Under the pieces are notes generated by a model. It did not search any database. It was given only the letters and a program-made list of their open reading frames with translations, and was not told the DNA's origin. From Aldrovandia affinis (Eukaryota > Chordata > Actinopteri > Notacanthiformes > Halosauridae), in assembly GCA_029706075.1 (NCBI GenBank), contig JAINUG010000054.1:4997074-5061073 (forward strand): DNA of 64,000 bases. The letters run 5' to 3'. Below, in pieces: positions 15,140 to 46,066 of the stretch; within the stretch, counting starts at the first letter, position 1, and each line of letters starts with the position of its first letter. The translations under genes and the position numbers were made by a program.

Positions 15140-16825
15140 ATCATACTCAATTCTAAGGTTTAAAACAGAGACAATAAAAGTATAGTCAACCTAATAAATT
15201 AATTAATGCAGACTCTCTCTCTGACCGTGATGTTGTTCAGGGGGCAGTAGCTTTCATTCACCAGAAGAATTAAACCCCCACCCCGCCGTTTGCCATTCGT
15301 TTGCCATTCATTACTTGGGTCCCTTTCAGACAGCCCAGTCCACACTGACTCCTCTCCCCTTTTGCCCCCACGTTAGCGCCCCCCTCTGGGAGGCTCCTTA
15401 TTTATTTGGGGTTATTATTTTATGTATTATTTTCTGTCCCCACTCACTGTCCTGCCCTAGGTTAACTTGTGTCCATTTGACTCATAAGTCCAGTTGTACT
15501 GGTTGTCGCTATTTATTTATTTTTAAACGTGATCTCCAAACAAAAGTAAATCGCATCTATTGTTGCATACAGTCTTTGTATCATTTCCTTCAGTTGAATA
15601 CCTGTAGCGGGGAAGTGTTTCTATCCTGAGCCACACAGTCTGCGGGTCTCTCCCCCAAATAGGAGAGTGGCGTAGTCTTTCATAAAGTAAGCCCTAGGCT
15701 AGTGGGTGTTACAGAAGTAACTTGCATCACCATTTGGCATTATGATTTTTAACAGACAAAAAAATAGTACACTCACCTATTTCAAGCGCAATTTTGACAC
15801 TAACAAAGAGGTATCGAAAATCGCAGCACATTTTGTTGTGCTGAAATGTTCAGCTCAATGTTCCAGTTTCGTACTGACTGTAGGCACTAGGGTTGCCAAC
15901 TTTATATCATCCAAACGGCGACTGTTGAAGTAAGACTCAGGAAAGTTTGCTTTTCCATAATCGCGCTACCAGCTTTACTACAACAAAGCTCATAGACACA
16001 GGGCACAACCAAAAACGGAGAAACCCACGGGGGTCACTTCTTAGACGTACAAACACATTCACGGTTACAACACTACTCCACTCAATGACACAAGGGGTGA
16101 TGGGGAACTGGCACACAAGGAATTATTATTAGCTGTACGATTAAGTACATATTAAATAAATGTAAAACCATTTAACTGATATGGTAATGTATATCATGTA
16201 TATGTGTACATACTGTATACGTGTATATATATATATATATATATATATTTCCCAGGAGAAAGTATATTTTATAGTATATATACATTGTGGGGCAGGAAAT
16301 CAAACTCACCAAATGCCATGAGACGCATTCCCAGCATCCTGGTCTTGATGGTGTCTCCCAAAGGAAAGTCACAATTGTACACAGAGTTTGTGTATCTGAG
16401 AAACTGATCCCGTAAGCAGAGGAATTCACTGAAAAACGTGACTAGTACAAGACAGCATAGTCTTTCTAATGAGGAAGAATCGCTCGTGCGACCTCACTTG
16501 AACACATTTTTAGCTGCTAGTGTTACTTCTCCATTTTCTACTTCTTTTTTTCTCCGATTTCTTTCTTCGATTTTTCAGGTCAACAAGATGTTTTAAGACC
16601 GAAGACACAGACATAGCAACCAAAGATATGGCCTCAGTTGAAAAGAAAGAAAAAGCCTCTCTCGAGCAACCAACAAAGATAAGAGTCTGGAGATTGCTAA
16701 ACGGCATTGGAACTCTGACTGGAACTGTTGTTCTGGTCAGATAAGACCAATATGTAGCTTTTTGGCCTGGCACACCGGCAGTGGATTTGGTATTCTGTGA
16801 CTTGTAGGAGCTCTAAGGTTTCTTC
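15140..16825. other. no gene recognised
   Basis: Contains an (AT)n tract at about 16220-16248 and short frames with no family resemblance. The frame around 16520-16744 is lysine-rich and low in complexity, and is not convincing. Confidence 0.4.
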
Positions 16826-17217
16826 CGGGGATATCAATGCATACAATTAAGGGATCTTTTTGAAATTAAACTACGAGCCACATTTTGTGGCAGTAAATTA
16901 TGTCCCATTTCAGTTCTAGAAAAACGTCCTAAGTTATATGTGTAACCCGTGTTAGTAGCCTACGTTTCTTTCCTCTCATAAAAATGTTGGTACATCCAAG
17001 TAAATGCGTGTATTCTTAACTGTCATTCATTGTCATCATCATCATCAAGCGCAGCAACATCAACAATACTACCACTACTAGTATCACTGCTACTACAAAT
17101 AATAATAATAATAATAAAAAAATTGCAAAGAGAAAATGTGATCTTTTTAATGACATGTTTAAACGTGATTTGAAATTGCATTACTGTCATGAACAAATAA
17201 GAGATCTGCGCGTGCCT

Positions 17218-17235
17218 TGACGTTATCTTTAAAAC
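17218..17235 (+). promoter_or_regulatory. upstream Pol III element of type B (CRE-like half site plus TATA-like)
   Basis: TGACGTTATCTTTAAAAC places TTTAAAA at about -33 to -27 from the proposed RNA start, the position of a TATA-like element. TGACGT is a CRE half site. Vertebrate vault RNA genes are known to use upstream elements besides the internal boxes. Repeated in most units that retain type B. Confidence 0.5.
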
Positions 17236-17260
17236 CTTGTTCTTACTGAGTGTGAAGTGA

Positions 17261-17360
17261 GACGATTTTAGTCAGTGGGCACTTCGCCCACAACTAATTC
17301 CTGTTTTCTTGAACTCTACCTTCTCCGGGCTGTAGAACCACGGTCGCGGTTCGACGTTTT
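17261..17360 (+). ncRNA. vault-like RNA, type B copy 1
   Basis: Aligned to type A it keeps the box A side as ACGATTTTAGTCAGTGGGC then ACTTCG, the box B side as GTAGAACCACGG, and a CGACGTTTTG end with T4. The terminal stem is not well paired in this copy. It may be a pseudogene or a diverged functional form. Confidence 0.55.
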
Positions 17361-17662
17361 GCTTCCTGTTTTTATTGCCTAAATAGTATATTGCAGCTTT
17401 GCGCTGATGCATAAAGTTTAACAGTGTGTAGGAACATGGCACAATATATCTGTTTATTTGAATGATATGTTTAATCGTTAAAGAAGTATAGGATAATATT
17501 ATTTGTATATAGTACTGTAGAAGAACACATTTTAAAACGATATCTTGATTGGTGGATATACAAATATTTTTTTAGCAACACGCAATGCACACTATGAAAC
17601 AGTAGGAGGCACTGTGTGCACTATGTTGTCTTTAAAAGCTTATTTTTTAAGCGTTTTTTCGT

Positions 17663-17746
17663 GCGTCGGTTTAGCTCAGTGGTTACTTCAGTTGCCATAC
17701 TCAATCTTCTCCGGGAGATCGAACCCCGGGCGCGGTCCGACGTTTT
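17663..17746 (+). ncRNA. vault RNA-like gene, type A copy 1 (short class, 84 nt)
   Basis: It starts GCGTCGG and ends CCGACGT plus T4. The two ends can pair over seven positions including one G-U. Box A lies in TTTAGCTCAGTGGTTACTTC, which differs from the mammalian vault RNA sequence by one base. The box B counterpart is GATCGAACC, then CCGGGCGCGG. The centre is shorter than in most other copies, so the length resembles the 88-nt human vault RNAs. Confidence 0.85.
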
Positions 17747-18301
17747 GTGCTGTTTTTAATATCCTAAATGGTATATTGCAGTTTTTCTTAGATGGATGCA
17801 TTTGAACAGTATTAGTAATACGGACAAAATTTTGCCGAAAGTTGTGGATCGTGAAAGAACCTCGTGACCGGTGATATCAATGCATACAATTAAGGGATCT
17901 TTTTGAAATTAAACTACGAGCCACATTTTGTGGCAGTAAATTATGTCCCATTTCAGTTCTAGAAAAACGTCCTAAGTTATATGTGTAACCCGTGTTAGTA
18001 GCCTACGTTTCTTTCCTCTCATAAAAATGTTGGTACATCCAAGTAAATGCGTGTATTCTTAACTGTCATTCATTCATCATCATCATCATCAAGCGCAGCA
18101 ACATCAACAATACTACCACTACTAGTATCACTGCTACTACAAATAATAATAATAATAAAAAAATTGCAAAGAGAAAATGTGATATTTTTAATGACATGTT
18201 TAAACGTGATTTGAAATTGCATTACAGTCATGAACAAATAAGAGATCTGCGCGTGCATTGACGTTATCTTTAAAACCTTGTTCTTACTGAGTGTGAAGTG
18301 A

Positions 18302-18401
18302 GACGATCTTAGTCAGTGGGCACTTCGCCCACAACTAATTCCTGTTTTCTTGAACTCTACCTTCTCCGGACTGTAGAACCACGGTCGCGGTTCGACGTTT
18401 T
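18302..18401 (+). ncRNA. vault-like RNA, type B copy 2
   Basis: Differs from type B copy 1 at only a few bases (GATCTTAGTCAG and CCGGACTGTAG), consistent with a recent duplication of the whole unit. Same CGACGTTTTG end. Confidence 0.55.
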
Positions 18402-18703
18402 GCTTCCTGTTTTTATTGCCTAAATAGTATATTGCAGCTTTGCGCTGATGCATAACGTTTAACAGTGTGTAGGAACATGGCACAATATATCTGTTTATTT
18501 GAATGATATGTTTAATCGTTAAAGAAGTATAGGATAATATTATTTGTATATAGTACTGTAGAAGAACACATTTTTAAAACGATATCTTGATTGGTGGATA
18601 TACAAATATTTTTTTAGCAACACGCAATGCACACTATGAAACAGTAGGAGCACTGTGTGCACTATGTTGTCTTTAAAAGCTTATTTTTTAAGCGTTTTTT
18701 CGT

Positions 18704-18787
18704 GCGTCGGTTTAGCTCAGTGGTTACTTCAGTTGCCATACTCAATCTTCTCCGGGAGATCGAACCCCGGGCGCGGTCCGACGTTTT
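18704..18787 (+). ncRNA. vault RNA-like gene, type A copy 2 (short class)
   Basis: By my reading the 84-nt RNA is identical to copy 1, and the upstream leader (CTTTAAAAGCTTATTTTTTA) matches too. The pair shows recent duplication or homogenisation. Confidence 0.85.
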
Positions 18788-19113
18788 GTGCTCTGTTTTA
18801 ATATCCTAAATGGTATATTGCAGTTTTTCTTAGATGGATGCATTTGAACAGTATTAGTAATACGGACAAAATTTTGCCGAAAGTTGTGGATCGTGAAAGA
18901 ACCTCGTGACCGGTGATATCAATGCATACAAGTAAGGGATCTTTTTGAAATTAAACTACGAGCCACATTTTGTGGCAGAAAATGATGTACCATTTCAGTT
19001 CTAGAAAAACTTCCTACGTTATATGTGTAACTCGTGTTAGTAGCTTACGTTTCTTTCCCTCTCATAAAAATGTTGGTACATCCAAGTAAATGCGTGTATT
19101 CTTAACTGTAATT

Positions 19114-19144
<31 letters not shown>

Positions 19145-19428
19145 CAAAGAACAACAGCAATATCAGCAATACTACTAGTACTAGTAGCACTACTACTATA
19201 AATAATAATAATACAATTGCAAAATAAAATTATGATGATATTTTTAATGACATATTTGAACGTGATTTGATCTACTTTGAACATGCATTACAGTCATTAA
19301 CAAATAAGAGATCTTTGCCTGCATTGACGTTATCTTTAAAACGATCTCTTGATTTGTGGATAGAAAATCGTTTTCTTTAAAAACAACTAAATGTAGACTG
19401 TGAAACAATAGGAATTCCTATGTGCACT

Positions 19429-19450
19429 ACGTTCTCTTTAAAATATTAAT
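19429..19450 (+). promoter_or_regulatory. TATA-like upstream block of type A copy 3
   Basis: TCTTTAAAATATTAAT ends 18 bp before the RNA start, so its TTTAAAATATTAAT core spans -31 to -18. The same block, preceded by ACGTTC, stands before most type A copies. It shares the core TCTTTAAAA with the element before type B, which supports common Pol III promoter architecture. Confidence 0.55.
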
Positions 19451-19467
19451 TTCAAGCAGAATTCTGT

Positions 19468-19567
19468 GCGTCGGTTTAGCTCAGTGGTTACTTCGTTGTC
19501 AAACTTTCAGTTTCGCCGAACTCTACCTTCTCCGGAGGGTCGAACCACGGGCGCGGTCCGACGTTTT
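19468..19567 (+). ncRNA. vault RNA-like gene, type A copy 3 (long class, 100 nt)
   Basis: The reference copy for the long class. It has a GCGTCGG/CCGACGT terminal stem, intact box A, a central part running from AAACTTTCAG to GCCGAACTC, box B as GGTCGAACC followed by ACGGGCGCGG, and T4. The RNA is identical to copy 13 about 11.7 kb away. Confidence 0.88.
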
Positions 19568-19615
19568 GCGCCCTGTTTTTAGCCTAAATGGAATATTGCA
19601 GCTTTGCCTAGATTA

Positions 19616-22103
19616 CAGTTTTTTTCGATTGCATAAACACTAAAATCAAAAGTATTACACAATTATCAAAACCTTACACTCAAGGAGCAAAACATCGGCC
19701 CAGATTTGCACCACTATAAGCACAATGTCAGCCTCACACTTTTTGCAAAACAATACACACAGTGATTTGCAAAACATGAAACACACTTGTATACATTAGA
19801 CACAGAAGTATATCATGATGTCACTTCCTTGCAATTCCAAAGCACTGACTGTCAAATTACCACACCTATGAGCCAATTGGTTAAACACAGCCATCAGGTG
19901 CGCAAACACATGATTGCTTAATTGTAGACACACCAATCAGGTTTAAGCACTATAAAAATGCAGCAGGTGAGTTCACCCTGTCTTCAACCAAAATGGAAGG
20001 AGTCAGAAGAAGAAGAGTGAGGGTGAGAGGGAATCCATGGAGGAGGAGGAGGAGAGGAGGTAGAGGTAGAGGAAGAGGAAGAGGAAGAGGCGGAGGCTGT
20101 GCCAGAGGTAGAGGTAGAGGCCGAGGTGGAGGTAGAGGAAGAGGAAGACCTGAAGCAGGAGGAGAACGTGCTCAAAGAAGAAGAGGACCAAATTTATCAA
20201 ATGAAATTCGCGCAACACCAGTTGACCATGTCGTGAACCACGGATTGACACTGAGGGAGGCTGGACTAAGAGTTCAGCCAAATCTTAGCAGATATACAGT
20301 GGCATCTGTCATTAGGACATTTCGACAAGAAAACAGGTTAAAAAAAATCTGTCTACAGTTACAGTAATCAGCTGCTTATTGTATCCACCATATCAGCACT
20401 TTTGATACCTCTTCCTGTGACATTTTACAGTAGGTTACATGTATTTTTTTCTACATAGGATTGAGGGTCGAGAACGACAAGGAGGAAGGGGGCCCATATT
20501 CACGCAAGAACAAGAGAGAGAGATCATAAACATGGTTTTGGCCAATAATGCTATTAGGCTCAGAGAAATTCAAGCCAACATTATCGGTGACCATGCCATT
20601 TTCAATAATGTCCATCAGGTCTCTCAGTCAACACTGGCATGCATCCTGAAAAGACATCAGGTTCAAATGAAACAACTTTATCGAGTGCCTTTTGAGCAGA
20701 ATTCAGAGAGGGTCAAACAGCTGCGGCATGAGTATGTGGAGGTATGTATTATTCACTTTAGCACTGTGATGTTGCATACTGCACACGTAACCTTTTTACA
20801 TGTACATTTACTGTATACTAGATCTATGCTGAACTACACAATCTTGTCTTTCACTGTATTTCAGAGAGTTTTACAGATGGATGCTGAGGAAGTCCCGCAT
20901 GAATTCATATACATAGATGAGGCAGGGTTCAACCTCACAAAAGCAAGAAGGAGAGGCAGACATATCATTGGCCACAGGGCTATAATCAATGTCCCAGGGC
21001 AACGTGGGGGTAACATCACCCTTTGCGCTGCCATTACACAGAATGGGGTCCTCCTCCGTCATGCCAATATGGGCCCTTTCAACACACCTCACATTCTCAC
21101 ATTTTTGTACCGATTGCACAACATCATCACAGCAGTAAACCAAATGCACCAGATGCAATACATTGTCATCTGGGACAATGTGTCATTCCACCGCTCTGCT
21201 CTGGTCCAGAACTAGTTTCAACACCATCCACAGTTTACAGTACTATACCTTCCACCATACTCTCCGTTTCTAAACCCAATCCAAGAGTTTTTCTCGGCAT
21301 GGCGGTGGAGGGTTTACGATCTCCGGCCCCAGGCTCAGGTAACCCTCATTCAGGCCATGGAGGAGGCCTGTAACCAAATCGACGCCACAGCTGTGCAAGG
21401 ACGGATTCGACATTCAAGACGGTTCTTCCCACGTTGTCTTGCCAATGAGGATATCGCCTGTGATGTTGATGAAATTCTCTGGCCAGATCCAGCTAGGCGA
21501 AGAGATAATGTCTAGTGTATTTTCAGTTTTTTCAGATTTGTTATTTTTTTTTTTTTTTTTACTGTAATTGTAACCTGTACTGGATACAGTATTTAATGTT
21601 TGTCTGATATTTGCTGAGCTTACAGTGTTATGCACACTACTGTAGTAGCATGAAAACTGGGACGTGTTTTGTTGTGATTCTCCATGTTGACATGTTGACT
21701 GATTTGGGTATATGGAGAGAAATAAATTATATTTTCATCAGTCTGCAGCATTGGTCTTGTGTAGTGTTTGGTGAATTTATTGTATATTTGCACTTTCTCT
21801 GTGTACTTCACTTACAGTACTCTATTACTCTATCTACACTGAGAAGTAGAATTGCTAAAAGTGTTTTAGGTTAGCAACAGCAGTGTGTAACTGGTTCAAA
21901 CAGAATTAAGTCATATGAAACGTGTGTGTTTCATATGGTAACAAAATATGTTTTTTATTAATTAGTGCATAGTTTTTACAAGAGTGTTTCATTTCGCAAA
22001 GGATCTGAGGTGTTCTGCTAATTGGGTGTGTGGTTGTGCTAATTGTGTGTAGTGTTTTGAAAAACCGGGCCCTGTTTTCAAAATTGTGCTCAAGCAATCG
22101 CAA
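19616..22103 (+). mobile_element. IS630/Tc1/mariner-type DNA transposon inside the array
   Basis: It sits at a TA dinucleotide (19614-19615). The left end CGATTGCATAAACACT and the right end, inverted, CGATTGCTTGAGCAC, form imperfect terminal inverted repeats. The outermost CAGTTTTTTT of the left end has no counterpart on the right, so the 3' tip is lost. The left flank is the end of type A copy 3 and the right flank is the leader of copy 4, so roughly 0.7 kb of array unit, including a type B gene, was removed with or after the insertion. Confidence 0.75.
19993..21515 (+). pseudogene. transposase with DDE_3-type catalytic domain, one nonsense codon
   Basis: Three exons read through as join 19993-20336, 20459-20741, 20865-21515 (426 codons including stop). 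TATAAAAA lies about 40 bp before the ATG. The N-terminus is an Arg/Gly repeat (RGRGRGRG), then a Homeodomain-like HTH segment (GLTLREAGLRVQPNLSRYT). Catalytic residues are seen in FIYIDEAGFN, IVIWDNVSFH and, third, the Glu of NPIQEFFSAW after PPYSPFLNP. A single TAG at 21213-21215 lies between the second and third catalytic residues. Otherwise the frame is clean, so the copy is young. Confidence 0.8.
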
Positions 22104-22266
22104 TAGGATATTATTTGTATACTGTAGAATATCACATTTTAAAATGATCTCTTGATCTGTGGATAGAATCTTTTTTTAAGCAACACATAATGCAGACTTT
22201 AAAACAGTAGGAGGCGCTGTATGCGCTACGTTATCTTTAAGACCTTAATTTCACGCGGAACTCTCT

Positions 22267-22363
22267 GCGTCGGTTTAGCTCAGTGGTTACTTCGTTGCAA
22301 AACTTTCAGTTTAAAACTCTACCTTCTCCGGAGGGTCGAACCACGGGCGCGGTCCGACGTTTT
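22267..22363 (+). ncRNA. vault RNA-like gene, type A copy 4 (97 nt)
   Basis: Terminal stem and both boxes are intact. The central loop has lost a few bases (CAGTTTAAAACTC in place of CAGTTTCGCCGAACTC). It is the first copy after the transposon. Confidence 0.85.
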
Positions 22364-22780
22364 GCGCTCTGTTTTTAGCCTAAATGGAATATTGCAGCTT
22401 TGCTTAGATTAATGCATTTGAACAGTATTAGTAATACGGACAAAATAGCTTTATTTTGCCGAAAGTTGTGGATCGTGAAAAAACCTTGGGACCGGTGATA
22501 TCAAAGCATACAATTAAGGGATCTTTTTTAAATTAAACTACGAACCACTTTTTGCGGCAGTCAATTATGTACTATTTCAGTTCTAGAAGAACTTCCTAAG
22601 TTATATGTGTAACTTGTGTTAGTAGCTTACGTTTCTTTCCCCTCATAAAAATGTTGGTACATCCAAGTAAATGCGTGTATTCTTAACTGTAATTTTCATC
22701 ATCATCATCATCTTCATCATGAAGAACAACATCAATATCAATAATACTACTACTACCAGTGCCACCACTACTACAACAAC

Positions 22781-22825
<45 letters not shown>

Positions 22826-22838
22826 AATTGCAAAGAGG

Positions 22839-22940
22839 TACTTGATTTCGGTTAGTGGGTACTTCGCCCACAACCAGCTCTTGTTTTCCCGAACTCTACC
22901 TTCTCTGAACGGTAAAACCACTGGCGCGGTTCGGCGTTTT
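22839..22940 (+). ncRNA. vault-like RNA, type B copy 3
   Basis: GATTTCGGTTAGTGGGTACT, CGCCCACAACCAGC and GGTAAAACCACTGGCGCGG lead to TTCGGCGTTTTG. The microsatellite (AAT)n before it is expanded to about 17 repeats. Confidence 0.5.
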
Positions 22941-23241
22941 GCTTTACGATTTTATGCCCTAAATAGAATATTGCAGCTTTGCGCGGATGCATACAGTTAA
23001 ACAGTATTCAGAAATATGGCACAACATCTTTGTTTATTTGAATGACATGCTTAATCGTTAAAGAAGTATAGGATCATTTTATTTGTACACTGTAGAAGAT
23101 CACATTTTTAAAACGATATCTTGATTTGTGGACAGAAAATATATATCATTTAAAGCAACACGCAATACACACTATGAAACAGTAGGAGACGCTGTGTCCA
23201 CTACGTTCTCTTTAAAGCCTTATTGTCAAGCAGTATTTTCT

Positions 23242-23342
23242 GCGTCGGTTTAGCTCAGTGGTTACTTCGGTTGTCGAACTCTAGGTTTCGCCGTAGTCTA
23301 CCTTCTCCGGAGGGTCGAACCGCGGGCGCGGTCTGACGTTTT
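23242..23342 (+). ncRNA. vault RNA-like gene, type A copy 5
   Basis: The 3' strand of the terminal stem reads CTGACGT instead of CCGACGT, which converts one G-C to G-U and keeps the stem. Central variants are GGTTGTCGAACTC and GCCGTAGTC. Box B reads GGTCGAACCGCGGG. Confidence 0.82.
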
Positions 23343-23896
23343 ATGCTCTGTTTTTATCTTAAGTGGAATATTGCAGCTTTGCTTTGCATTTTAACAGCAT
23401 TAATGATAGGGACAAAACAGCTTTATTTTGCCGAAAGTTGTGGATCGTGAAAAAAACCTTGTGACCGGTGATATCAATGCACACAATTAAGGGATCTTTT
23501 TGAAATTAAACTACGAGCCACATTTTGTGGCAGTACATTATGTACTATTTCAGTTCTAGAAGAACTTCCTAAATTATATGTGTAACTTGTGTTAGTAGCT
23601 TACGTTTCTTTCCCTCTCATAACAATGTTGGTACATCCAAGTAAATGCGTGTATTCTTATCTGTCATTTTCATCATTATCATCTTCATCATGAAGAACAA
23701 CATCAATATCAATAATATCACTAATACTATCACTACTACTACAACAACTATAAATAATAATAATACATTTGCAAAGAAAATGTGATATTTTTAATGACAT
23801 ATTTGAACGTGATTTGATCTATCTTTGAACATGCATCAGTCATGAGACCTGCGCGTGCACTGACGTTCTCTTTAAAACGTTGTTTCAAGGTCGATG

Positions 23897-24298
23897 GGAG
23901 CCGATTTAGGTTAGTAGCAGTACTTCGCCATAGCCATTTCCAGCGCAGAGTGCGAGATAGGTTTCTCACAGATGAATCTAATCTGCACGTCAACAAGAGC
24001 GTCTTTAAAAACAGCAACCATATCACCGCTTCTGTTTTTAACTCTTGTTGTTCTACCACTGGAAAGTTACCATTAGACCAGAGGGAGGGACAGAAATGCA
24101 GCGACACAGAGGTAGGAAAGGTTTACGCGGGGGGGGAGGCGTGAGGCGTGTGGTTGGGGGAGGCGAGTTGAGCCCCGGCATCTCTTATTTTACAAATTAA
24201 GCACTGGTTAGTAGGCACTTAATCCACAACCAAGCTCCTGTTTTCCCAAACTCTACTTTTTTCCGGACGGTAGAACTACGGGCGTAGTTCGGCGTTTT
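23897..24298 (+). pseudogene. vault-like RNA, type B copy 4, split by an hAT element
   Basis: The 5' part GAGCCGATTTAGGTTAGTAG and the 3' part, from GTTAGTAGGCACTT to GTTCGGCGTTTT, are separated by an hAT element with the duplicated target GTTAGTAG. The GCCGA/TCGGC terminal stem would still close if the insert were absent. Not transcribable as one intact RNA. Confidence 0.65.
23918..24206. mobile_element. internally deleted hAT element (289 bp) with 8-bp target duplication
   Basis: Flanked by GTTAGTAG at 23910-23917 and 24207-24214. It contains a fragment that translates like the hAT C-terminal dimerisation region (SSAECE-GFSQMN style). Its left end is damaged: CAGTACTTCGCC replaces the CAGTGCTTAATTT seen in the 29-kb copy. 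Confidence 0.7.
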
Positions 24299-24596
24299 GC
24301 TTTCCGATTTTATAGCCTAAATAGAATATTGCAGCTTTGCGCGGATGCATAACGTTTAACAGTATTCAGAAATATGGCACAATATCTCTGTTTATTTGAA
24401 TGATATGTTTAATCGTTAAAAAGTATAGGATCATTTTATTTGTTCACTGTAGAAGATCACATTTTTTAAACGATATCTTGATTTGTCGATAGAAAATCTT
24501 TTTTTAAAGCAACACGCAATGCGCCACTATAAAACAGTCGGAGGCGCTGTATGCACTATGTTCTCTTTAAAATCGTAATTCCACGTGGAATCCTTT

Positions 24597-24696
24597 GCGT
24601 CGGTTTAGCTCAGTGGTTACTTCGTTGTCAAACTTTCAGTTTCACCAAACTGCATCTTCTCCGGAGGGTCGAACCACGGGCGCGGTCCGACGTTTT
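24597..24696 (+). ncRNA. vault RNA-like gene, type A copy 6
   Basis: 100 nt, stem and boxes intact. The central part is variant (TTTCACCAAACTGCATCTTC). No type B gene separates it from copy 7, because the unit between is shortened to about 500 bp. Confidence 0.85.
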
Positions 24697-25102
24697 GCGC
24701 CCTGTTTTTAGCCTAAATGGAATATTGCAGCTTTGCTTAGATTAATGCATTTGAACAGTATTAGTACTACGGACAAAATAGCTTTATTTTACCGAAAGTT
24801 GTGGATCGTGAAAGAACCTCGTGATCGGTAATATCAATGCATACAAGTAAGGGATCTTTTTGAAATTAAACTACGAGCCACATTTTGTGGCAGTAAATTA
24901 TGTACCATTTCAGTTCTAGAAAAACGTCCTACGTTAAATGTGTAACTCGTGTTAGTAGCTTACGTTTCTTTCCCTCTCATAAAAATGTTGCTACATCCAA
25001 CATATAATTTTTTAAGCAACACATAATGCAGACTATAAAGCAGTAGGGGGCGCTGTATGCGCTACGTTCTCTTTAAAACCTTAATTTCACGCGGAGTCCT
25101 GT

Positions 25103-25202
25103 GCGTCGGTTTAGTTCAGTGGTTACTTCGTTGTCAAACTTTCAGTTTCGCCGAACTCTACCTTCTCCGGAGGGTCGAACCACGGGCGCGGTCCGACGTT
25201 TT
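25103..25202 (+). ncRNA. vault RNA-like gene, type A copy 7 (box A variant)
   Basis: Identical in layout to copy 3 but box A reads TTTAGTTCAG, with T for the C of the consensus, which may weaken TFIIIC binding. Downstream the unit is cut short, running straight into AAAATAGCTTTATTTTGCCG. Confidence 0.8.
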
Positions 25203-25767
25203 GCGCCCTGTTTTTAAAATAGCTTTATTTTGCCGAAAGTTGTGGATCGTGACAGAACTTTGTGACCGGTGATATCAATGCATACAATTAAGAGATCTTT
25301 TTAAAATTAAACTACGAGCCACATTTTGTGGCAGTAAATTATGTACTATAACGAACTTTAAAATTCAAAATTAAAGTAAAGTAAAATAAAAATATATATA
25401 GGCTATATATACAGTATATATACTGTATATGTGTGTGTGTAACTCGTGTTAGTAGGCCTACGTTTCTCTCCCTCTCGTAAAATGTTGGTACATCCAAGTA
25501 AATGCGTGTATTCTTAACTGTAATTTTCATCATTATCATCATCATCATCACAAAGAACAACAGCAATATCAGCAATACTACTAGTACTAGTACCACTACT
25601 ACTATAAATAATAATAATACAATTGCAAAAGAAAATGTGATATTTTTAGTGACATATTTGAACGTGATTTGATCTACTTTGAACATGCATTACAGTCATT
25701 AACAAATAAGAGATCTTTACCTGCATTGACGTTATCTTTAAAACCTTGTTTTCAATGTGCGTAAAGT

Positions 25768-25868
25768 GAGCCGATTTAGGTTCGTGGTACTTCGCCCACA
25801 ACCAATTTCTGTTTTCTAGAACCCTACTTTCCTCGGAGGGTCAAACCACGAGCGCAGCTCGGCGTTTT
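25768..25868 (+). ncRNA. vault-like RNA, type B copy 5
   Basis: GAGCCGATTTAGGTTCGTGG opens it and AGCTCGGCGTTTTG closes it, so GCCGA pairs with TCGGC. The box B region reads GGTCAAACCACGAGCGC. This is one of the better paired type B copies. Confidence 0.6.
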
Positions 25869-26156
25869 GGTTTCCGTTCTTGTAGCCTAAATAGAATAGG
25901 CTATAAAGTAGGCTATAACAGTATTTAGGAGCATGGCACAATATCTCCGTCTATTTGAATGATATGGTTAATCGTTAAAGGCCAATAGGATAAAATTATT
26001 TGTATACTGCAGAAGATCACATTTTTAAAACGATATCTTGATTTGTGGATAGAAAATCGTTTTATTTAAAAACAACTAAATGTAGACTGTAAAACAATAG
26101 GAGTTCCTATATGCACTACGTTCTCTTTAAAATATTAATTTCAAGCAGAACTCTCT

Positions 26157-26256
26157 GCGTCGGTTTAGCTCAGTGGTTACTTCGTTGTCAAACTTTCAGT
26201 TTCGCCGAACTCTACCTTCGCCGGAGGGTCGAACCACGGGCGCGGTCCGACGTTTT
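26157..26256 (+). ncRNA. vault RNA-like gene, type A copy 8
   Basis: 100 nt, differing from copy 3 by my reading only at CCTTCGCCGG for CCTTCTCCGG in the centre. Leader TCTTTAAAATATTAAT is present. Confidence 0.87.
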
Positions 26257-26822
26257 GCGCCCTGTTTTTAGCCTAAATGGAATATTGCAGCTTTGCTTAT
26301 ATTAATGCATTTGAACAGTATTAGTAATACGGACAAAATGGCTTCATTTTGCCGAAAGTTTTGGATCGTGAAAGAACCCAGTCACCGGTGATATCAATGC
26401 ATACAATTAAGGGATCTTTTTGAAATTAAACTACGAGCCACATTTTGTGGCAGTAAATTATGTACTATTTCAGTCATAGAAAAACGTCCTAAGTTATATG
26501 TGTAACCCGTGTTAGTAGCCTACGTTTCTTTCCCTCTCATAAAAATGTTGGTACATCCAAGTAAATGCGTGTATTCTTAACTGTCATTCATTGTCATCAT
26601 CATCATCAAGCGCAGCAACATCAACAATACTACCACTACTAGTATCACTACTAATACAAATAATAATAATAATTTTAAAAAATTGCAAAAAGAGAAGATG
26701 TGATCTTTTTAATGACATGTTTAAACGTGATTTGAACTTTTGCATTACTGTCATGAACAAATAAGAGATCTGCGCGTGCATTGACGTTATCTTTAAAACC
26801 TTGTTTTCAATGAGTGTAAAGT

Positions 26823-26925
26823 GAGCCGATTTAGGTTCGTGGGCACTTCGCCCACAACTCATTTCTGTTTTTCTTGAACCCTACCTTCTCGGAGGGTAGA
26901 ACCACGAGTCGCAGTTCGACGTTTT
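26823..26925 (+). ncRNA. vault-like RNA, type B copy 6
   Basis: GAGCCGATTTAGGTTCGTGG start, GCCCACAACTC and GGTAGAACCACGAG inside, GTTCGACGTTTTG end. The terminal stem has one mismatch relative to copy 5. Confidence 0.5.
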
Positions 26926-27226
26926 GGTTTCTGTTCTTATTGCCTAAATAGTAATAGCAGCTTTGCGCTGATGCATAAAGTTTAACAGTGTGGTAAACAT
27001 GGCACAATATATCTGTTTATTTGAATGATATGTTTAATCGTTAAAGAAGTATAGGATAATATTATTTGTATATAGTACTGTAGAAGAACACATTTTTAAA
27101 ACGATATCTTGATTTGTGGATAGAAAATCGTTTTTTTAAAAACAACTAAATGTAGACTGTAAAACAATAGGAGGCACTATGTGCACTACGTTCTCTTTAA
27201 AATATTAATTTCAAGCAGAACTCTCT

Positions 27227-27322
27227 GCGTCGGTTTTCAGCGGTTACTTCGTTGTCAAACTTTCAGTTTCGCCGAACTCTACCTTCGCCGGAGATCGAAC
27301 CACGGGCGCGGTCCGACGTTTT
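27227..27322 (+). pseudogene. vault RNA-like, type A copy 9, box A deleted
   Basis: Four bases (AGCT) are missing from box A, so it reads GGTTTTCAGCGGTTACTTC. The box B region also lost bases (GGAGATCGAACC). The stem and T4 remain, but Pol III initiation is likely impaired. Confidence 0.7.
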
Positions 27323-27890
27323 GCGCCCTGTTTTAATAGCCTAAATGGAATATTGCAGTTTTGCTTAGATGGATGCATTTGAACAGTATTAGTAATACGG
27401 ACAAAATGGCTTCATTTTGCCGAAAGTTTTGGATCGTGAAAGAACCCAGTCACCGGTGATATCAATGCATACAATTAAGGGATCTTTTTGAAATTAAACT
27501 ACGAGTCCAATTTGTGGCAGAAAATGATGTACCATTTCAGTTCTAGAAAAACGTCCTAAGTTATATGTGTAACTCGTGTTAGTAGCTTACGTTTCTTTCC
27601 TCTCATAAAAATGTTGGTACATCCAAGTAAATGCGTGTATTCTTATCTGTCATTTTCATCATCATCATCTTCATCAAGAACAACATCAACATCAATAATA
27701 CTACTACTACTAGTATCACTACTAATACAAAACTAATAATAATAATTTTAAAAATTTGCAAAGAGAAGATGTGATCTTTTTAATGACATATTTAAACGTG
27801 ATTTGAAATTGCATTTTGTCATGAACAAATAAGAGATCTGCGCGTGCCCTGACGTTATCTTTAAAACCTTGTTCTTAATGAGTGTAAAGT

Positions 27891-27992
27891 GAGCCGATTT
27901 TAGTCAGTGGGCACTTCGCCCACAACTCATTCCTGTTTTCTTGAACTCTACCTTCTCCGGACTGTAGAACCACGGTCGCGGTTCGACGTTTT
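27891..27992 (+). ncRNA. vault-like RNA, type B copy 7
   Basis: GCCGATTTTAGTCAGTGGGC start with a TTCGACGTTTTG end. It is intermediate between copies 1-2 and copy 6 and marks a patchwork of unit variants. Confidence 0.5.
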
Positions 27993-28295
27993 GCTTCCTG
28001 TTTTTATTGCCTAAATAGTATATTGCAGCTTTGCGCTGATGCATAAAGTTTAACAGTGTGTAGGAACATGGCACAATATATCTGTTTATTTGAATGATAT
28101 GTTTAATCGTTAAAGAAGTATAGGATAATATTATTTGTATATAGTACTGTAGAAGAACACATTTTTAAAACGATATCTTGATTAGTGGATATACAAATAT
28201 TTTTTTAGCAACACGCAATACACACTACGAAACAGTAGGAGGCACTGTGTGCACTATGTTGTCTTTATAGGCTTATTTTTTAAGCGTGTTTTCGT

Positions 28296-28398
28296 GCGTC
28301 GGTTTAGCTCAGTGGTTACTTCAGTTGCCATACTCAATCTTCTCCGGGAGATCGAACTTTAAAATATTAATTTTTAAGCGGGCGCGGTCCGACGTTTT
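28296..28398 (+). pseudogene. vault RNA-like, type A copy 10, leader fragment inserted in box B
   Basis: A short-class copy in which GATCGAAC is followed by about 23 nt (TTTAAAATATTAATTTTTAA, then GCG) before GGCGCGGTCCGACG. The inserted text matches the promoter leader found before copy 12. It breaks the box B region and the stem it forms. Confidence 0.75.
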
Positions 28399-28966
28399 GT
28401 GCTCTGTTTTAATATCCTAAATGGTATATTGCAGTTTTGCTTAGATGGATGCATTTGAACAGTATTAGTAATACGGACAAAATTTTGCCGAAAGTTGTGG
28501 ATCGTGAAAGAACCTCGTGACCGGTGATATCAATGCATACAAGTAAGGGATCCTTTTGAAATTAAACTACGAGTCACAATTTGTGGCAGAAAATGATGTA
28601 CCATTTCAGTTCTAGAAAAACTTCCTACGTTATATGTGTAACTCGTGTTAGTAGCTTACGTTTCTTTCCCTCTCATAAAAATGTTGGTACATCCATGTAA
28701 ATGCGTGTATTCTTATCTGTCATTTTCATCATCATCATCTTCATCGTGAAGAACAACATCAATATCAATAATACTACTACTAATAGTATCACTACTACTA
28801 CAACAACTAATAATAATAATAATAATACATTTGCAAAGAGAAAATGTAATATTTTTAATGACATATTTGAACGTGATTTGATCTATCTTTGAACATGCAT
28901 CATTAACATGAGACCTGCGCGTGCACTGACGTTCTCTTTAAAACGTTGTTTGTAAGGTCGATGGGT

Positions 28967-29521
28967 ACTTGATTTAGGTTAGTAGCAGTGCTTAATTTAT
29001 GCCGGGGCAAATGCCAATAATCCGATTTTGCGCCCGGCAAATGTTTTACTCAGAATCTGGGCCCAGGGCTCATAAATATATAAAGTGGGACAACAACCCG
29101 TATTTTAACAGACTTAACAGCCGAGAAACAAATCGTGCTTTCACAGTGTCCACAGAGACATCAGAAGAACAAGTTACAGCCCTTGAAGGATCTAACCGCT
29201 GTTAACACCATAGCCATTTCCAGCGCAGAGTGCGAGATAGGTTTCTCACAGATGAATCTAATCTGCACGTCAACAAGAGCGTCTTTAAAAACAGCAACCA
29301 TATCACCGCTTCTGTTTTTAACTCTTGTTGCTCTACCACTGGAAAGTTACCATTAGGCGTGAGGCGTGAGGCGTGAGGTTGGGGGAGGCGAGTTGAGCCC
29401 CGGCATCTCTTATTTTACAAATTAAGCACTGGTTAGTAGGCACTTAATCCACAACCAGCTCCTGTTTTCCCAAACTCTACCTTTTCCGGACGGTAGAACT
29501 ACGGGCGCGGTTCGGCGTTTT
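28967..29521 (+). pseudogene. vault-like RNA, type B copy 8, split by an hAT element
   Basis: The 5' part GATTTAGGTTAGTAG and the 3' part GTTAGTAGGCACTT to GGTTCGGCGTTTTG flank an hAT insertion at the same target as type B copy 4. The 3' part is closely similar to that copy. Confidence 0.65.
28986..29431. mobile_element. hAT element (446 bp) with terminal repeats and 8-bp target duplication
   Basis: The left end CAGTGCTTAATTTATGCC and the right end, inverted, CAGTGCTTAATTTGT with GCCGGGGC further in, are the terminal repeats. The target GTTAGTAG is duplicated at 28978-28985 and 29432-29439. The interior has a remnant that translates like the hAT C-terminal region (SSAECE-GFSQMN style) and a GAGGCGT repeat. 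It is fuller than the 23.9-kb copy. Confidence 0.85.
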
Positions 29522-29825
29522 GCTTTCCGATTTTATAGCCTGAATAGAATATTGCAGCTTTGCGCGGATGCATATAGTTGAACAGTATTCAGAAATATGG
29601 CACAATATCTCTGTTCGATATCTCTGAATGATATGTTTAATCGTTAAAGAAGTATAGGATCATTTTATTTGTACACTGTAGAAGATCACATTTTTTAAAC
29701 GATATCTTGGTTTGTCGATAGAAAATCTTTTTTTTAAAGCAACACGCAATGCACACTATAAAACAGTATGAGGCGCTGTATGCACTATGTTCTCTTTAAA
29801 ATCTTAATTTCACATGGAATACTTT

Positions 29826-29905
29826 GCGTCGGTTTAGCTCGGTGGTTACTTCGTTGTCAAACTTTCAGTTTCACCAAACTGCATCTTCTCTGGAGGGTCG
29901 AACCA
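29826..29905 (+). pseudogene. vault RNA-like, type A copy 11, 3' truncated
   Basis: Normal through box B (GGTCGAACCA), then it jumps to TATTTGAACGTGATTTG, text that normally lies upstream of type B. The 3' stem strand and terminator are gone. Box A is GCTCGGTGG. A deletion between two units explains this. Confidence 0.75.
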
Positions 29906-30121
29906 TATTTGAACGTGATTTGATCTACTTTGAACATGTATTACAGTCATTAACAAATAAGAGATCTTTGCCTGCATTGACGTTATCTTTAAAACAATCT
30001 CTTGATTTGTGGATAGAAAATCGTTTTCTTTAAAAACAACTAAATGTAGACTGTGAAACAATAGAAATTCCTATGTGCACTACGTTCTCTTTAAAATATT
30101 AATTTTTAAGCGTTTTTTCGT

Positions 30122-30206
30122 GCGTCGGTTTAGCTCAGCGGTTACTTCGTTGCTTCGAACTCCATTTTCTCCGGAAGATCGAACCACGGGCGCAGTCCGA
30201 CGTTTT
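30122..30206 (+). ncRNA. vault RNA-like gene, type A copy 12 (short class, 85 nt)
   Basis: Box A reads TTTAGCTCAGCGGTTACTTC, the same 20-nt text as human vault RNA 1-1 as I recall it. Box B is GATCGAACC then ACGGGCGCAG. Stem and T4 are intact. Confidence 0.87.
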
Positions 30207-30775
30207 GTGCTCTGTTTTAATATCCTAAGTGGTATATTGCAGTGTTGCTTAGATGGATGCATTTGAACAGTATTAGTAATACGGACAAAATTGCTTTATT
30301 TTGCCGAAAGTTGTGGATCGTGAAAGAACCTCGTGACCGGTAATATCAATGCATACAAGTAAGGGATCTTTTTTAAATTAAACTACGAGCCACATTTTGT
30401 GGCAGTAAATTATGTACCATTTCAGTTCTAGAAAAACGTCCTACGTTATATGTGTAACTCGTGTTAGTAGCTTACGTTTCTTTCCCTCTCATAAAAATGT
30501 TGGTACATCCAAATAAATGCGTGTATTCTTAACTGTAATTTTCATCATTATCATCATCACAAAGAACAACAGCAATATCAAGAATACTACTAGTACTAGT
30601 ACCACTACTCTATAAATAATAATAATACAATTGCAAAATAAAATTATGATGATATTTTTAATGACATATTTGAACGTGATTTGATCTACTTTGAAATGCA
30701 TTACAGTCATTAACAAATAAGAGATCTTTGCCTGCATTGACGTTATCTTTAAAATTGTTTTCAAAAAGAAAAGTG

Positions 30776-30846
30776 ATTTAGGTTTTTAATGATTTCTGTT
30801 TTTTAGAACTCTACTTTTCGGAGGGTCAAAACGTAGCTCGGCGTTT
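30776..30846 (+). pseudogene. vault-like RNA, type B copy 9, degenerate
   Basis: Only GATTTAGG, a shrunken centre, GGTCAAAACG and CTCGGCGTTTTG remain. About 30 nt of the box A side are deleted. Confidence 0.55.
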
Positions 30847-31141
30847 TGGTTTCCGTTCTAGCCTACATAGAATATTGCAGCTTTGCGCGGATGGATAAAG
30901 TAGGCTATAACAGTATTTAGGAGCATGGCACAATATCTCCGTTTATTTGAATGATATGTTTCATCGTTAAAGAATTATAGGATATTATTTGTATACTGTA
31001 GAATATCACATTTTAAAATGATCTCTTCATTTGTGGATAGAATTTTTTTTTCCAGCAACACATAATGCAGACTATAAAACAGTAGGAGGCGCTGTATTCG
31101 CTACGTTCTCTTTAAAACCATAATTTCACGCGGAGTCCTGT

Positions 31142-31241
31142 GCGTCGGTTTAGCTCAGTGGTTACTTCGTTGTCAAACTTTCAGTTTCGCCGAACTCTAC
31201 CTTCTCCGGAGGGTCGAACCACGGGCGCGGTCCGACGTTTT
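31142..31241 (+). ncRNA. vault RNA-like gene, type A copy 13
   Basis: Long class, RNA identical to copy 3 by my reading. Its 3' flank jumps directly to AAAATAGCTTTATTTTGCCG, as in copy 7, so copies 7 and 13 share a deletion and probably a common parent unit. Confidence 0.88.
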
Positions 31242-31504
31242 GCGCCCTGTTTTTAAAATAGCTTTATTTTGCCGAAAGTTGTGGATCGTGACATAACTTT
31301 GTGACCGGTGATATCAATGCATACAATTAAGGGATCTTTTTAAAATTAAACTACGAGCCACATTTTGTGGCAGTAAATTATGTACTATAAATAACTTTAA
31401 AATTCAAAATTAAAGTAAAATAAAAATATATATACTGTATATGTGTGTGTGTAACTCGTGTTAGTAGGCCTACGTTTCTCTCCCTCTCGTAAAACTGTTG
31501 GCAC

Positions 31505-32185
31505 ATCCAGGTACATGCTCAAAAAAACACATTTTTATTGAGTACGCATGCTATACCCCCCCTACACATTTATGTCCCTTATCCGATGTTCCGGTCAATT
31601 TGACACATGAAACAAATAGGTAAATATGAAACAAAAAGGTGACTTCACTTCTTGTCACACTACCTTAATCTCTAATTGGTCTCACATCTGTGTATGCACA
31701 CATGTACTGCATTTTTGTCTTTTCGCTCAATCAAATTTGCAACGCATTTCATAGATTGAACACAACCCTCTCCACCATGTAATGGACAATATTGCCAAAT
31801 GAAAATGTCCCAAGCCTAGTCCCACCACACCTACTCCTACTCCCACCACCACCCCCAACACCTCTTCCTACTCCACCCCCCATACACACAACCCCCCCCT
31901 TACTCTTGGTCCATAAGGATTCTCCCACTGTATTTATTTTCTTTTCAAAATCACCTCCCAGTTTCGCACTCCACCTATGTCTTCATTGTAGTGGATTTTT
32001 TAACATAAATCACAACGAATGACACTATATATGTTATCTATATTGTTTGGAGTTGAGATAGAGACAATATATATTAAGTATTTTTACATTCATTTTTATT
32101 TATGTATTGCTTTAAAATCCCAATAATGTCCTGGGTCAATTTGACCCGGCACACAGTATCAAAAAGTGAACTTCACACAAGGGTT
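31505..32185. mobile_element. palindrome-ended element in the last array unit
   Basis: CCGGTCAATTTGAC near 31592 and GGTCAATTTGACCCGG near 32132 are related inverted motifs. Array text stops at about 31505 (ACATCCAGGTACATGC) and resumes at about 32186 (AAGTGCATTCGTATCTG). GGTCAATTTGACC termini occur on some fish DNA transposons. The class is uncertain. Confidence 0.5.
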
Positions 32186-32275
32186 AAGTGCATTCGTATC
32201 TGTAATTTTCTGTGCATTCTTATCTGTAATTTTCATCATCATCAATAATAAAATAATTATATTATTGCCACAAGC

Positions 32276-33110: not shown

Positions 33111-36100
33111 ATGGCTGAAACCGATGGACCATTGAAGGTAAGATTTCGAGAAATCGTAGCTAGAAAGTTAACTAATGTTAGCTTGTGATTAACTGAAGCC
33201 GAAAATTAGCTGGATGTTTGCGGTGGTGTGCGTTAGCTAGCCAACATTAGCGAAGTCAGTTTCTATGTACGTTAAGCAACGCAGTTCGCTCGCCCTGCTT
33301 TGTTCTGAAAGCATCTACATGCTTTTAAGGCCTTTAAACGTTCGCTAACCCATTTCAGTTCGCCAATTAGCTAAAACTTGTTGGTGTCTTCAGGTAATGT
33401 TAGGCAGCGTGAACTAGTTGGCTAATTTCGTTTCTGTATAATGTCTAACTTTCATCGTGGATGGACAAGTTGACAACTGTTGTATAACTAGTTCGCTTGC
33501 TTGCTAAATAGCGTGCTGGATCAAATTATTGTTAGCTACCTAACTCGTGCTGGTCCACACGAAATTCGTAACGTTAGCTACTGTTAGCGTTTATTAGTTG
33601 TTTAGTAAATGATAATAAAGATGGCCAATTTTCTGTGCTAGGCATTATAGCTTGCCATCTTAAAGCGACAGGCGACGATTCTCGTTTTGGAGGGAATGGT
33701 GACATGTGAACATTGCTGGTTGGATCAGTCCTAGTACGATGAATGGAGGAAATGGTGCTAGAACGGTAGCAAGAGGACAAATCACAGGGTTTCGATATCG
33801 AACCCAAAATCGATGTGTCATTTCCCCTTCCCTTTCAATCCGACGTATTAACGTAACGCACCCAAATAAAAGTTTTTGTCTGTTTATTTTTGTTTGAGTG
33901 AATTCGCTAAACACCCCCAAAAAAAATAAAAACACACAAAAAAACTCATTTGGATGCGTAACTTGGTAAATAGTCAAACATTTTTACTTGCACCGGTTTT
34001 GGGTGAAATAACGTTAGCACGTTATTTTTCAGAAATCGTTAAGGTGGGATTATATTCATGAAAATGAATTCAGAACGCAGTTGATAATTGACACCAATGA
34101 AACGAACGTTAGGTCGCAACCAGCTGCGCGCTTCTCCAGAGGAGGTGCATGCTAGTCATGCTAGTCTGGAATTGATGGAGCATTGGATTAATTGGGTTGG
34201 GCCGATAAATACGATTTAGCATTTCAAATTGGGAGGGGGTGGGCGGTTAAAACAGTTTGTTTATTTTATTGCTTTGTAATGCTGATACCACTTGTCCTTG
34301 CTTCAGGCTCTCTTTGAGAACAAGCCTCTGAACAAGACCAAGAAGGATGACAAGCGGCTGTCAGTGGAGAGGATCTACCAGAAGAAGACCCAGCTGGAGC
34401 ACATTTTGCTCCGCCCGGACACCTACATCGGCTCAGTGGAGCCCGTCACCCAGGTGAGCGCATGCCCCACGGCGTCATGGGAATAATTTGTCCTTTTGGG
34501 CATGGGTGTGATTGTGTTGTTTAAATGTTTACTTTATGTTTAAGTAAGACAGCCATCTTCCTCTTCAGTTAGCCTTATTTGGTTTTGTTCGTTTATCTTC
34601 GATTTGGCAACACTCTTTTCCCTGGTCTTGTGTCCTGTTATGTGTTTGTGTAGTTGTATATATTGTAAATATGTAAATAGACACGAAATATATATTTGAT
34701 TGCACCGTACCCTCTGCCTCAGTTCCATTTCTCCACCCTACATCTTATCATTGATTCAAATTTTCCCGTATATATAATTAAAAACATTGTTACACCCCTC
34801 CCCAAATACCCCTAGACCAACTGGGGTTGTAACAGTGATCTATGTTGTTCATGTATAAATTGACTCTTTAAACAGCTTGATGTTTAGAGCACGTTACACG
34901 CAGTGTTCAGAAAGCCTTCGAATCAGTGAATAAAAGTTTTCTAATCACAGCGCCATACTGCTGCCCATAATAAGCTCTCTAAACGGACTGTGATGATCCA
35001 TACGGTGGCTGACGCCCTGTGGAATTGACACACTCGGGGAGATATTGTTCAAAATGTACACCATGGAACCCAACATGCATTTTTATACATTTCCAGCAAA
35101 TGTGGGTGTTTGACGAGGAAATCGGGATGAACTTCAGGGAAGTGAGCTTCGTCCCTGGTCTCTATAAGATCTTTGATGAAATCCTGGGTGAGTAAATGGG
35201 CCGGTCTGGCACAATGATGATGTGAATCAGTGTATTACCACAGGTAACTGCCTAAATAAAGGAAACTTGAGTGGTCACCTTCATCCTTTGGTGAAGCATT
35301 TCGATCCTGATAGGAGGCGGCTCTTCCAGGATGACAATGCCCCCATCTACAGGGCACAAACGGTCACTGAGTTGTTCGATGCGCATGAAAACAATGTAAA
35401 ACGTATGCCATGGCCGTCTCAACCGCAAGATCTCAACCCAAATTGAACACATGGGAGATTATGGAGCAGCGCCTGAGACGGCATTACCGTCACCATCAAC
35501 AGAACACCAAATGGTGGAATTTCTTGTAGAAGAATGGGGTTTTGTCCCTCCCAATAGTGTTCCAGACACCTGTAGAATCTATGCCAAGCTGTTCTGGCAA
35601 CCTGCGATGGCACTATGTTGGTGTTTCCTATATTTTGGCAGTTACCTGTATGTTCATGTTCATGTTCTTTTGGAAGTTGCATTGGGGTGATGAATTCCGT
35701 TTCTGGAGGGCCGGTGTGTATGCAGGTTTTTGTTTCTACCAATTACCCTTGCTCAATTAGCTAATTAGTTGGATACGGCAATGCTGGTTAACTTGTGGAT
35801 TAGACCACAGTAACATGTTTCATATGGGAACACAAGAAGAGTCTTTGGCTGTCATGCATGGGCTTATCAAGAAATGTAACTAAAATGTCAGATCATGTCA
35901 ATCAGGGGTGTTAAACTCATTCCATCGAGGGCCGAGTGTGTGCAGGTTTCTGTTGTAACCAATGCATTACACCAGGTGATTTCAATTAGATTCTTAGTTG
36001 AAGAAGTGAGCTAATTAGTGAAATCACCTGGTGTAGTGCATTGGTTGCAACAAAAACCTGCATACACTCGGCCCTCAATGGAATGAGTTTGACACCTGTG

Positions 36101-36797
36101 ACGTAAATGATTGGGCTAATTAAATCATTAAGAACAGAAGTTGGCATGAAATCCAGAAACGGGTATGGCCCACCTTGCCCATCCCTGATGTAGAGTGTGA
36201 ATTTGCTATTAAAAAAAAAATAAATATCTCTTGGATGCGTAATACAAAGGAATGGTGCGTAGATCAATTTTGGGTGAACTATGGCTTTATGCTGAACTAA
36301 TCTAGCATGACGTGGAAAATGTAAAGGAAATCGCACGTTGCATTCCATTTAATTTGCGTTTGAATTTCTGTCTCTGCAGTGAACGCTGCGGACAACAAGC
36401 AGAGGGATAAGACCATGTCCTGCATCAAGATCAACATCGACCCGTGAGTGTCTGTCCTGAGGGGACACTATGGGGCAGGGGTCAATTTAAACACCCAGCA
36501 CCTAAGATGGTCTCACGAGGCAATTTGAACAAGAAAAGCACACAAGCGTTCACGAAAGGCCCTGATTATAGGAATTCATTTTTCCCCATACCTGATTCCT
36601 GCATCCATGTTTCACCTCATAGTGTGGATTTTTTAGGTGTTTGTTGCGATCAACCACACCTTTTTCCTTTGCTGTTCCATACAAACAAAAAATGTATGTG
36701 CCCAACTGATTAAGAAAAAGAAAAAGGGTGTGTGATTAATATAATATACACACGCAACTTTTTTCTTTTCTTAATCAGTTGTGCACATACATTTTGC

Positions 36798-36839
<42 letters not shown>

Positions 36840-45800: not shown

Positions 45801-46007
45801 CGCTTTGAGCACCTTCTGTATTTTGGACAATGTCTCGTCACATTGGTACGCTTGTGGTGTTTGTCTTAGAACGGTGTGCACGAGGCTTCTTGTAGCTTGC
45901 TCTCCGATGAAGAGCGGCGTATCGCATGACGCAGTCTTGGGCTTTTGGCACGAATGAAAGAGTTTGCATTGGAATCGTTGGCATTCCGTTGACTGAAAAT
46001 AGTCCAG

Positions 46008-46066
<59 letters not shown>

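Follow-up and report, generated by a model that had tools for sequence, protein, structure and literature searches.

The stretch of DNA analyzed here, hereafter the window, comprises 64,000 nucleotides of the halosaurid fish Aldrovandia affinis (GenBank assembly GCA_029706075.1, 1.22 Gb; contig JAINUG010000054.1, positions 4,997,074 to 5,061,073 of the forward strand, here C2067:4997074-5061073) and carries an array of vault RNA genes. An original prediction, made from the sequence alone, held that at least 13 copies of a vault RNA gene stand in tandem at this locus, proposed a scan with the Rfam Vault covariance model (RF00006) as the check, and named the lack of a match for any copy as a refutation. 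The scan has now been run. With the gathering score of 34 bits as threshold, RF00006 finds 12 copies in the interval 17663-31242, each of them on the forward strand and with scores of 39.3-70.0 bits, so that refutation fails; a thirteenth copy, at 29826, missed by Rfam at the gathering score, is found by a model built in this analysis from 20 copies of the same type (model R1, 65.2 bits). The vault RNA identity of the copies is therefore borne out and the array in the window is real. These 13 copies are referred to as type A.

Homology across the array spans approximately 16825-31518, with a short repeat at 32188-32234 beyond the main homology. The tandem arrangement of forward-strand copies stands, but three corrections to its description are needed: the spacing of type A copies is irregular (296-2799 bp), a DNA transposon lies inside the array, and a second, diverged element upstream of 9 of the 13 copies had been overlooked. 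The box A text TTTAGCTCAGYGGTTACTTC occurs 12 times in the window at up to three mismatches (10 exact, two with one mismatch), where shuffled sequence is expected to yield 0.01 occurrences.

Anatomy of the Type A Copies

All 13 copies begin with GCGTCGG. An intact copy continues with box A at base 10, a variable loop, box B, the strand CCGACG that pairs with the beginning of the gene, and a T4 terminator; in the copy at 23242 the pairing strand reads CTGACG. The original description holds for the box A text, the paired ends and the terminator, and for the box B-like motif, which reads GGTCGAACC or GATCGAACC. Intact copies fall into two loop classes. The short class (85-86 nt) includes A1 (17663..17747) and A2 (18704..18788), each scoring 57.9 bits with RF00006, and A12 (30122..30207; 64.3 bits); A1 retains box A, box B, TTTAAA at -32 and T4. 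The long class (98-102 nt) comprises A3 (19468..19568; 67.2 bits), as stable as which none of 200 shuffles folds, together with A4 (22267..22364; 70.0 bits), A5 (23242..23343; 61.7 bits), A6 (24597..24697; 68.4 bits), A7 (25103..25203; 59.9 bits), A8 (26157..26257; 67.2 bits), and A13 (31142..31242; 67.2 bits).

Upstream of the gene body, an ACGTT or ATGTT element is found at -39/-40 in all 13 copies and TTTAAA at -31/-32 in 11; the remaining two have TTTAAG (A4) and TTTATA. The region preceding A13 (31061..31141, forward strand) is representative, with ACGTTC at -39 and TTTAAA at -31. Box A, box B, TTTAAA or TTTAAG near -31, and T4 are retained together in 10 of the 13 copies, which reproduces the earlier count of promoter-competent genes. 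The three that fail differ in their defects. In A9 (27227..27323; 39.3 bits) three bases are deleted from box A, and the copy is a probable pseudogene, as is A10 (28296..28399; 39.6 bits), which carries, where box B ends, an insertion identical over 24 nt to 30089-30112 in the region upstream of A12. A11 (29826..29905) is truncated just past box B and joined at 29904/29905 to spacer that is 98.5% like 19251-19452. A10 and A11 are chimeras of array sequence and have the look of scars left where units recombined with one another.

A Diverged Paralog Upstream of Type A

The element upstream of nine type A copies is a diverged vault paralog, designated type B, that begins 389-405 bp before its type A partner in eight cases and 367 bp before it in the ninth. 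R1 recovers eight of the nine, the other having been placed by eye, as were the starts of the degenerate copies. All lie on the forward strand. RF00006 scores five of them at 18.6-24.5 bits, below the cut-off: 17259..17361 (24.2 bits; R1 47.9 bits), 18300..18402 (21.3 bits; R1 47.2 bits), 25768..25869 (24.5 bits), 26823..26926 (18.6 bits; R1 40.6 bits), and 27891..27993 (23.7 bits; R1 48.8 bits), the last of which contains the hairpin GTGGGC-ACTTC-GCCCAC. The copy at 22840..22941 (R1 49.0 bits) has neither TGACGT nor TTTAAA upstream. Two copies are degenerate (24201..24299, R1 31.4 bits; 29426..29522, R1 37.9 bits), and the ninth, at 30775..30848, is a remnant with internal deletions that lies 367 bp upstream of 31142 and gives no R1 match (E 0.1). 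In the window, type B looks like a decaying relative.

Genome-Wide Distribution and a Sister Array

A genome-wide RF00006 search, which scored 49 of 73,666 first-look candidates and so gives counts that are lower bounds, found at least 23 copies over the cut-off on three contigs: the 12 in the window, 10 on contig C1967, and one on contig C2011. The C1967 copies form a sister array on the reverse strand (C1967:4761716-4783843) built of the same dimer of type B and type A as the window array. Both internal boxes and T4 are retained in six of its 10 type A copies, whereas four fail the box or T4 test; the main loop of this array is unlike the loops of the window. Over C1967:4774789-4783843 (L011-L013) the units are about 1.27 kb long and 98% identical across more than 4 kb, an identity that points to recent homogenization of the array. 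A wnt exon lies about 17 kb away (L009); a forkhead-like frame near the array (L015) was recognized by eye, and the single frame scanned at that place had no Pfam match. As DNA queries against the assembly, a type A copy yields 36 matches, a window type B copy 18, and a C1967 type B copy 18, all within the two arrays. The genome also encodes major vault protein repeats (PF01505, four matches on C335).

For type B on C1967, RF00006 gives seven matches of 28.5-30.2 bits, also below the cut-off, and R1 finds eight full-length copies and one weak one. Window positions 25607-26451 align with C1967:4780575-4779733 over their full length at 67% identity, with B on B and A on A. The B-A dimer therefore predates the separation of the two arrays. 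In a FastTree phylogeny of copies and flanks, from which five truncated copies were excluded, type B and the C2011 gene separate from type A with support of 0.88; the grouping of the two type B sets has support of 0.36.

The single copy at C2011:2395562 has the best RF00006 score of all (70.9 bits) and keeps box A, box B, and T4. Used with its flanks as a DNA query, it matches only itself. It precedes by 2.8 kb an 865-codon open reading frame that encodes Cadherin, Cadherin_2, and Cadherin_C_2 domains, the composition of a protocadherin variable exon. The putative synteny with the protocadherin locus is drawn from this one exon.

RNA Structure

Structure was examined in an alignment of 20 of the 24 type A copies known in the genome; those left out were 28296, 29826, a C1967 copy divided by the boundary of a locus, and a duplicate. 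The RNAalifold consensus has 19 pairs and an energy of -21.4 kcal/mol. Of 321 cells, 97.5% are paired, a share that drops to 32-51% if the partner strand is shifted by one to three columns. Three pairs are altered on both sides, giving the closed 5'/3' end stem with compensatory changes that characterizes RF00006 members; as many such pairs are reached by 7 of 500 shuffles, a figure that is not a probability, because the alignment tested is also the source of the structure and its sequences have common ancestry. Folded singly and compared with shuffles, five type A sequences (two of them identical) give z-scores of -1.9 to -3.3.

Sequence Constraint and the Origin of the Arrays

The two arrays were compared through 30 unit pairs (five window dimers in which both B and A are full, against six C1967 dimers), which share ancestry, are not independent, and amount in effect to one comparison. 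The type A body is 86.7% identical between arrays, and all other parts of the unit lie well below it: type B 72.6%, spacer 72.1%, upstream region 71.7%, downstream region 69.4%, A promoter 69.1%, and B promoter 65.0%. In Fisher tests on six pairs the A body exceeds spacer plus downstream region with p of 0.00066-0.058, four of the six values being below 0.01. Our reading of this pattern is that selection has probably acted on type A from the separation of the arrays onward, if not for longer.

The array is very probably the product of a lineage-specific amplification of a vault RNA gene by tandem duplication. The founding unit would have been a dimer, consisting of the vault RNA gene A and a diverged copy B about 400 bp upstream, that came to two chromosomal places, one beside top2a and the other on C1967 about 17 kb from the wnt exon; each array would then have been enlarged and reshuffled through unequal recombination. 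The single protocadherin-linked gene on C2011 would have stayed at the ancestral location. Intact type A genes are predicted to be transcribed by RNA polymerase III from the internal boxes A and B, with the upstream TATA-like element assisting and T4 as the stop. The resulting RNA would measure about 85-102 nt, its ends closed by a stem and its loop variable. The benefit would lie in vault RNA dosage or in loop variety. More tentatively, and with odds slightly below even, the two arrays would descend from one ancient dimer, would have been reshaped by recombination, and would have expanded an RNA gene of few copies into about 17 intact ones in several loop classes (85-86 nt and 98-102 nt in the window, another loop on C1967), with one array next to a cell-cycle gene; this would be a natural diversification of dosage or sequence in which the central loop is what changes.

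In addition to the shared ancestry of the unit pairs, several results weigh against the account of a lineage-specific tandem amplification. Two of the six Fisher tests are marginal (p 0.049 and 0.058). In the six pairs tested, promoter regions are no more conserved than spacer between arrays; because the upstream regions fare no better than spacer, constraint on the external promoter is unsupported. In the window array the A body, at 93.4%, barely exceeds the spacer (92.4%) and falls below the downstream region (95.5%), and within the C1967 array it is, at 92.6%, below both spacer (97.3%) and type B (99.3%). Since conservation within arrays does not single out the A body, duplication may have carried individual copies along as passengers. 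Copies inside each array appear too recent or too homogenized to reveal selection. ZMAT2, finally, was not found near the C2011 copy in the stretches examined, which include 5 kb of N (L017).

The same absence of excess conservation inside either array would also fit arrays that are mostly or wholly beds of vault RNA pseudogenes, a formerly active gene having been multiplied by tandem duplication while the real vault RNA comes from the C2011 gene or from a few copies. Vault pseudogenes are known in human (available text of PMC8287541 and PMC13404743), and 3 of the 13 window copies and 4 of the 10 on C1967 fail the box or T4 test. Ten window copies and six on C1967 nevertheless keep both internal boxes and T4, the A body is better conserved than its flanks between arrays, and changes in the stem are compensated; we regard a pseudogene bed as quite improbable. 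Type B, for its part, might be another functional small RNA, retained next to A from before the separation of the arrays. It is present in both arrays at equal distance from A, five of the nine window copies combine a full-length body with upstream TGACGT and TTTAAA, and the seven C1967 copies printed keep GGTCGAACC, with T4 ending six of them, so that these could still be transcribed. Against a working RNA, divergence of type B between arrays equals that of spacer (73% vs. 72%; p 0.69-1 in six pairs), none of the nine window or seven C1967 copies matches the box A or box B patterns used (the C1967 box B is one letter off), and three type B folds are weaker relative to shuffles (z -1.5 to -2.1). 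A functional type B is accordingly unlikely, if a little less so than the pseudogene bed, and type B seems better described as a relic.

The original prediction also named as a refutation a match of the same 100 nt to the head of a known short interspersed nuclear element (SINE) dispersed across the genome. On such a reading the repeat would be a tRNA-like SINE head that matches vault RNA through common RNA polymerase III boxes. Boxes A and B do resemble those of tRNA, and tRNA-headed SINE-like elements with UnaL2 tails occur in the same window. Dispersal was looked for and did not appear: in 1.22 Gb the RF00006 matches fall at the 23 or more places on three contigs, and the DNA queries reach the two arrays only. 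About 1 kb of flanking sequence is moreover common to the copies in the form of direct repeats, and no UnaL2 match was found at any type A copy. A SINE head is rejected on the whole-genome searches, and hardly any probability remains for it. Ordinary tRNA genes were likewise considered and rejected, the two tRNA-like genes that ARAGORN finds in the window both lying outside the array.

Neighboring Features of the Window

Downstream of the array lies a topoisomerase II gene of alpha-like type (33111..58987, forward strand, both ends placed by eye). The original prediction had this neighbor right: 12 joined exon pieces score slightly nearer TOP2A (6zy5, 1025.7 bits) than TOP2B (7yq8, 1015.8 bits). 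A tandem repeat with units of 63-152 bp occupies 48583-48916 inside the span of the gene. The transposon within the array (19657..22048, forward strand), which sits in the spacer after the copy at 19468, has PF13358 (DDE_3) matches and is bounded by 38-nt inverted arms that are 79% complementary; we take it to be Tc1/mariner-like, and its transposase frame is broken by a stop. SINE-like elements with a tRNA-like head and a tail of the UnaL2 type of long interspersed nuclear element are located at 2410-2539, 8027-8166, and 39275-39421. UnaL2 being an element of eels, these tails agree, as does the gene content, with a ray-finned fish as the source. Upstream of the array, on the reverse strand, 6529-9451 contains two immunoglobulin exons and one scavenger-receptor (SRCR) exon, perhaps parts of immune receptor genes.

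Relation to Known Vault RNA Systems

Lineage-specific clusters of vault RNA genes were reportedly described by Stadler in 2009. According to the available text of the sources, four vault RNA genes, distributed over two loci, are functional in human, with RNAs that include 88 and 98 nt species (PMC13404743), and mouse has one, without which it is viable (PMC11185573). In zebrafish and medaka one vault RNA gene each has been sequenced, and more than 100 deuterostome candidates have been predicted (PMC10491885); 12 vault RNAs are annotated in Nothobranchius furzeri (PMC5584509). Because the 12 killifish genes and the predicted deuterostome candidates have already been reported, lineage-specific clustering is a known kind of event, of which the array is a large further case. 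Among titles and the openings of abstracts, in which subscription journals are sparsely covered, no earlier report was found of the copy number, of the two places away from protocadherin, or of the dimer unit.

The type A genes share with the vtRNA1 genes (human VTRNA1-1, 1-2, and 1-3; mouse Vaultrc5) the RF00006 match, boxes A and B, a TATA-like element, the end stem, and T4. The copy at 30122 has 18 nt of box A text in common with a Vaultrc5 primer (available text of PMC11185573), and lengths of 85-102 nt compare with the 88 and 98 nt given for human in the accessible part of PMC13404743. Arrangement differs: human has three genes at the ZMAT2-PCDH locus and one elsewhere, whereas A. affinis has 13 beside top2a, at least 10 on C1967, and a single one found at protocadherin. 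The mammalian locus adjoins PCDH and ZMAT2 (PMC10491885, PMC11185573, as far as their available text goes), and the C2011 copy is similarly near a protocadherin-type exon. The window array adjoins top2a and shows no protocadherin linkage; human VTRNA2-1 also sits away from the protocadherin cluster, so linkage is not strictly required (available text of PMC10491885). In Nothobranchius furzeri, likewise a fish, vault RNA genes number about a dozen, approximately half the count found here (PMC5584509, available portion). Human VTRNA2-1 (nc886) and the vault pseudogenes are, like type B, diverged paralogs, located off the main locus; type B instead adjoins an A gene in most units and has been co-amplified with it.

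The function of vault RNA is unsettled, and a set of about 17 genes that look intact, the majority of which lie in two arrays, constitutes a natural test of dosage or of loop variety. The array further allows the fixed parts of the RNA, namely the boxes and the end stem, to be compared with the changing loop, and it indicates that expansions of vault RNA genes can occur outside the protocadherin locus.

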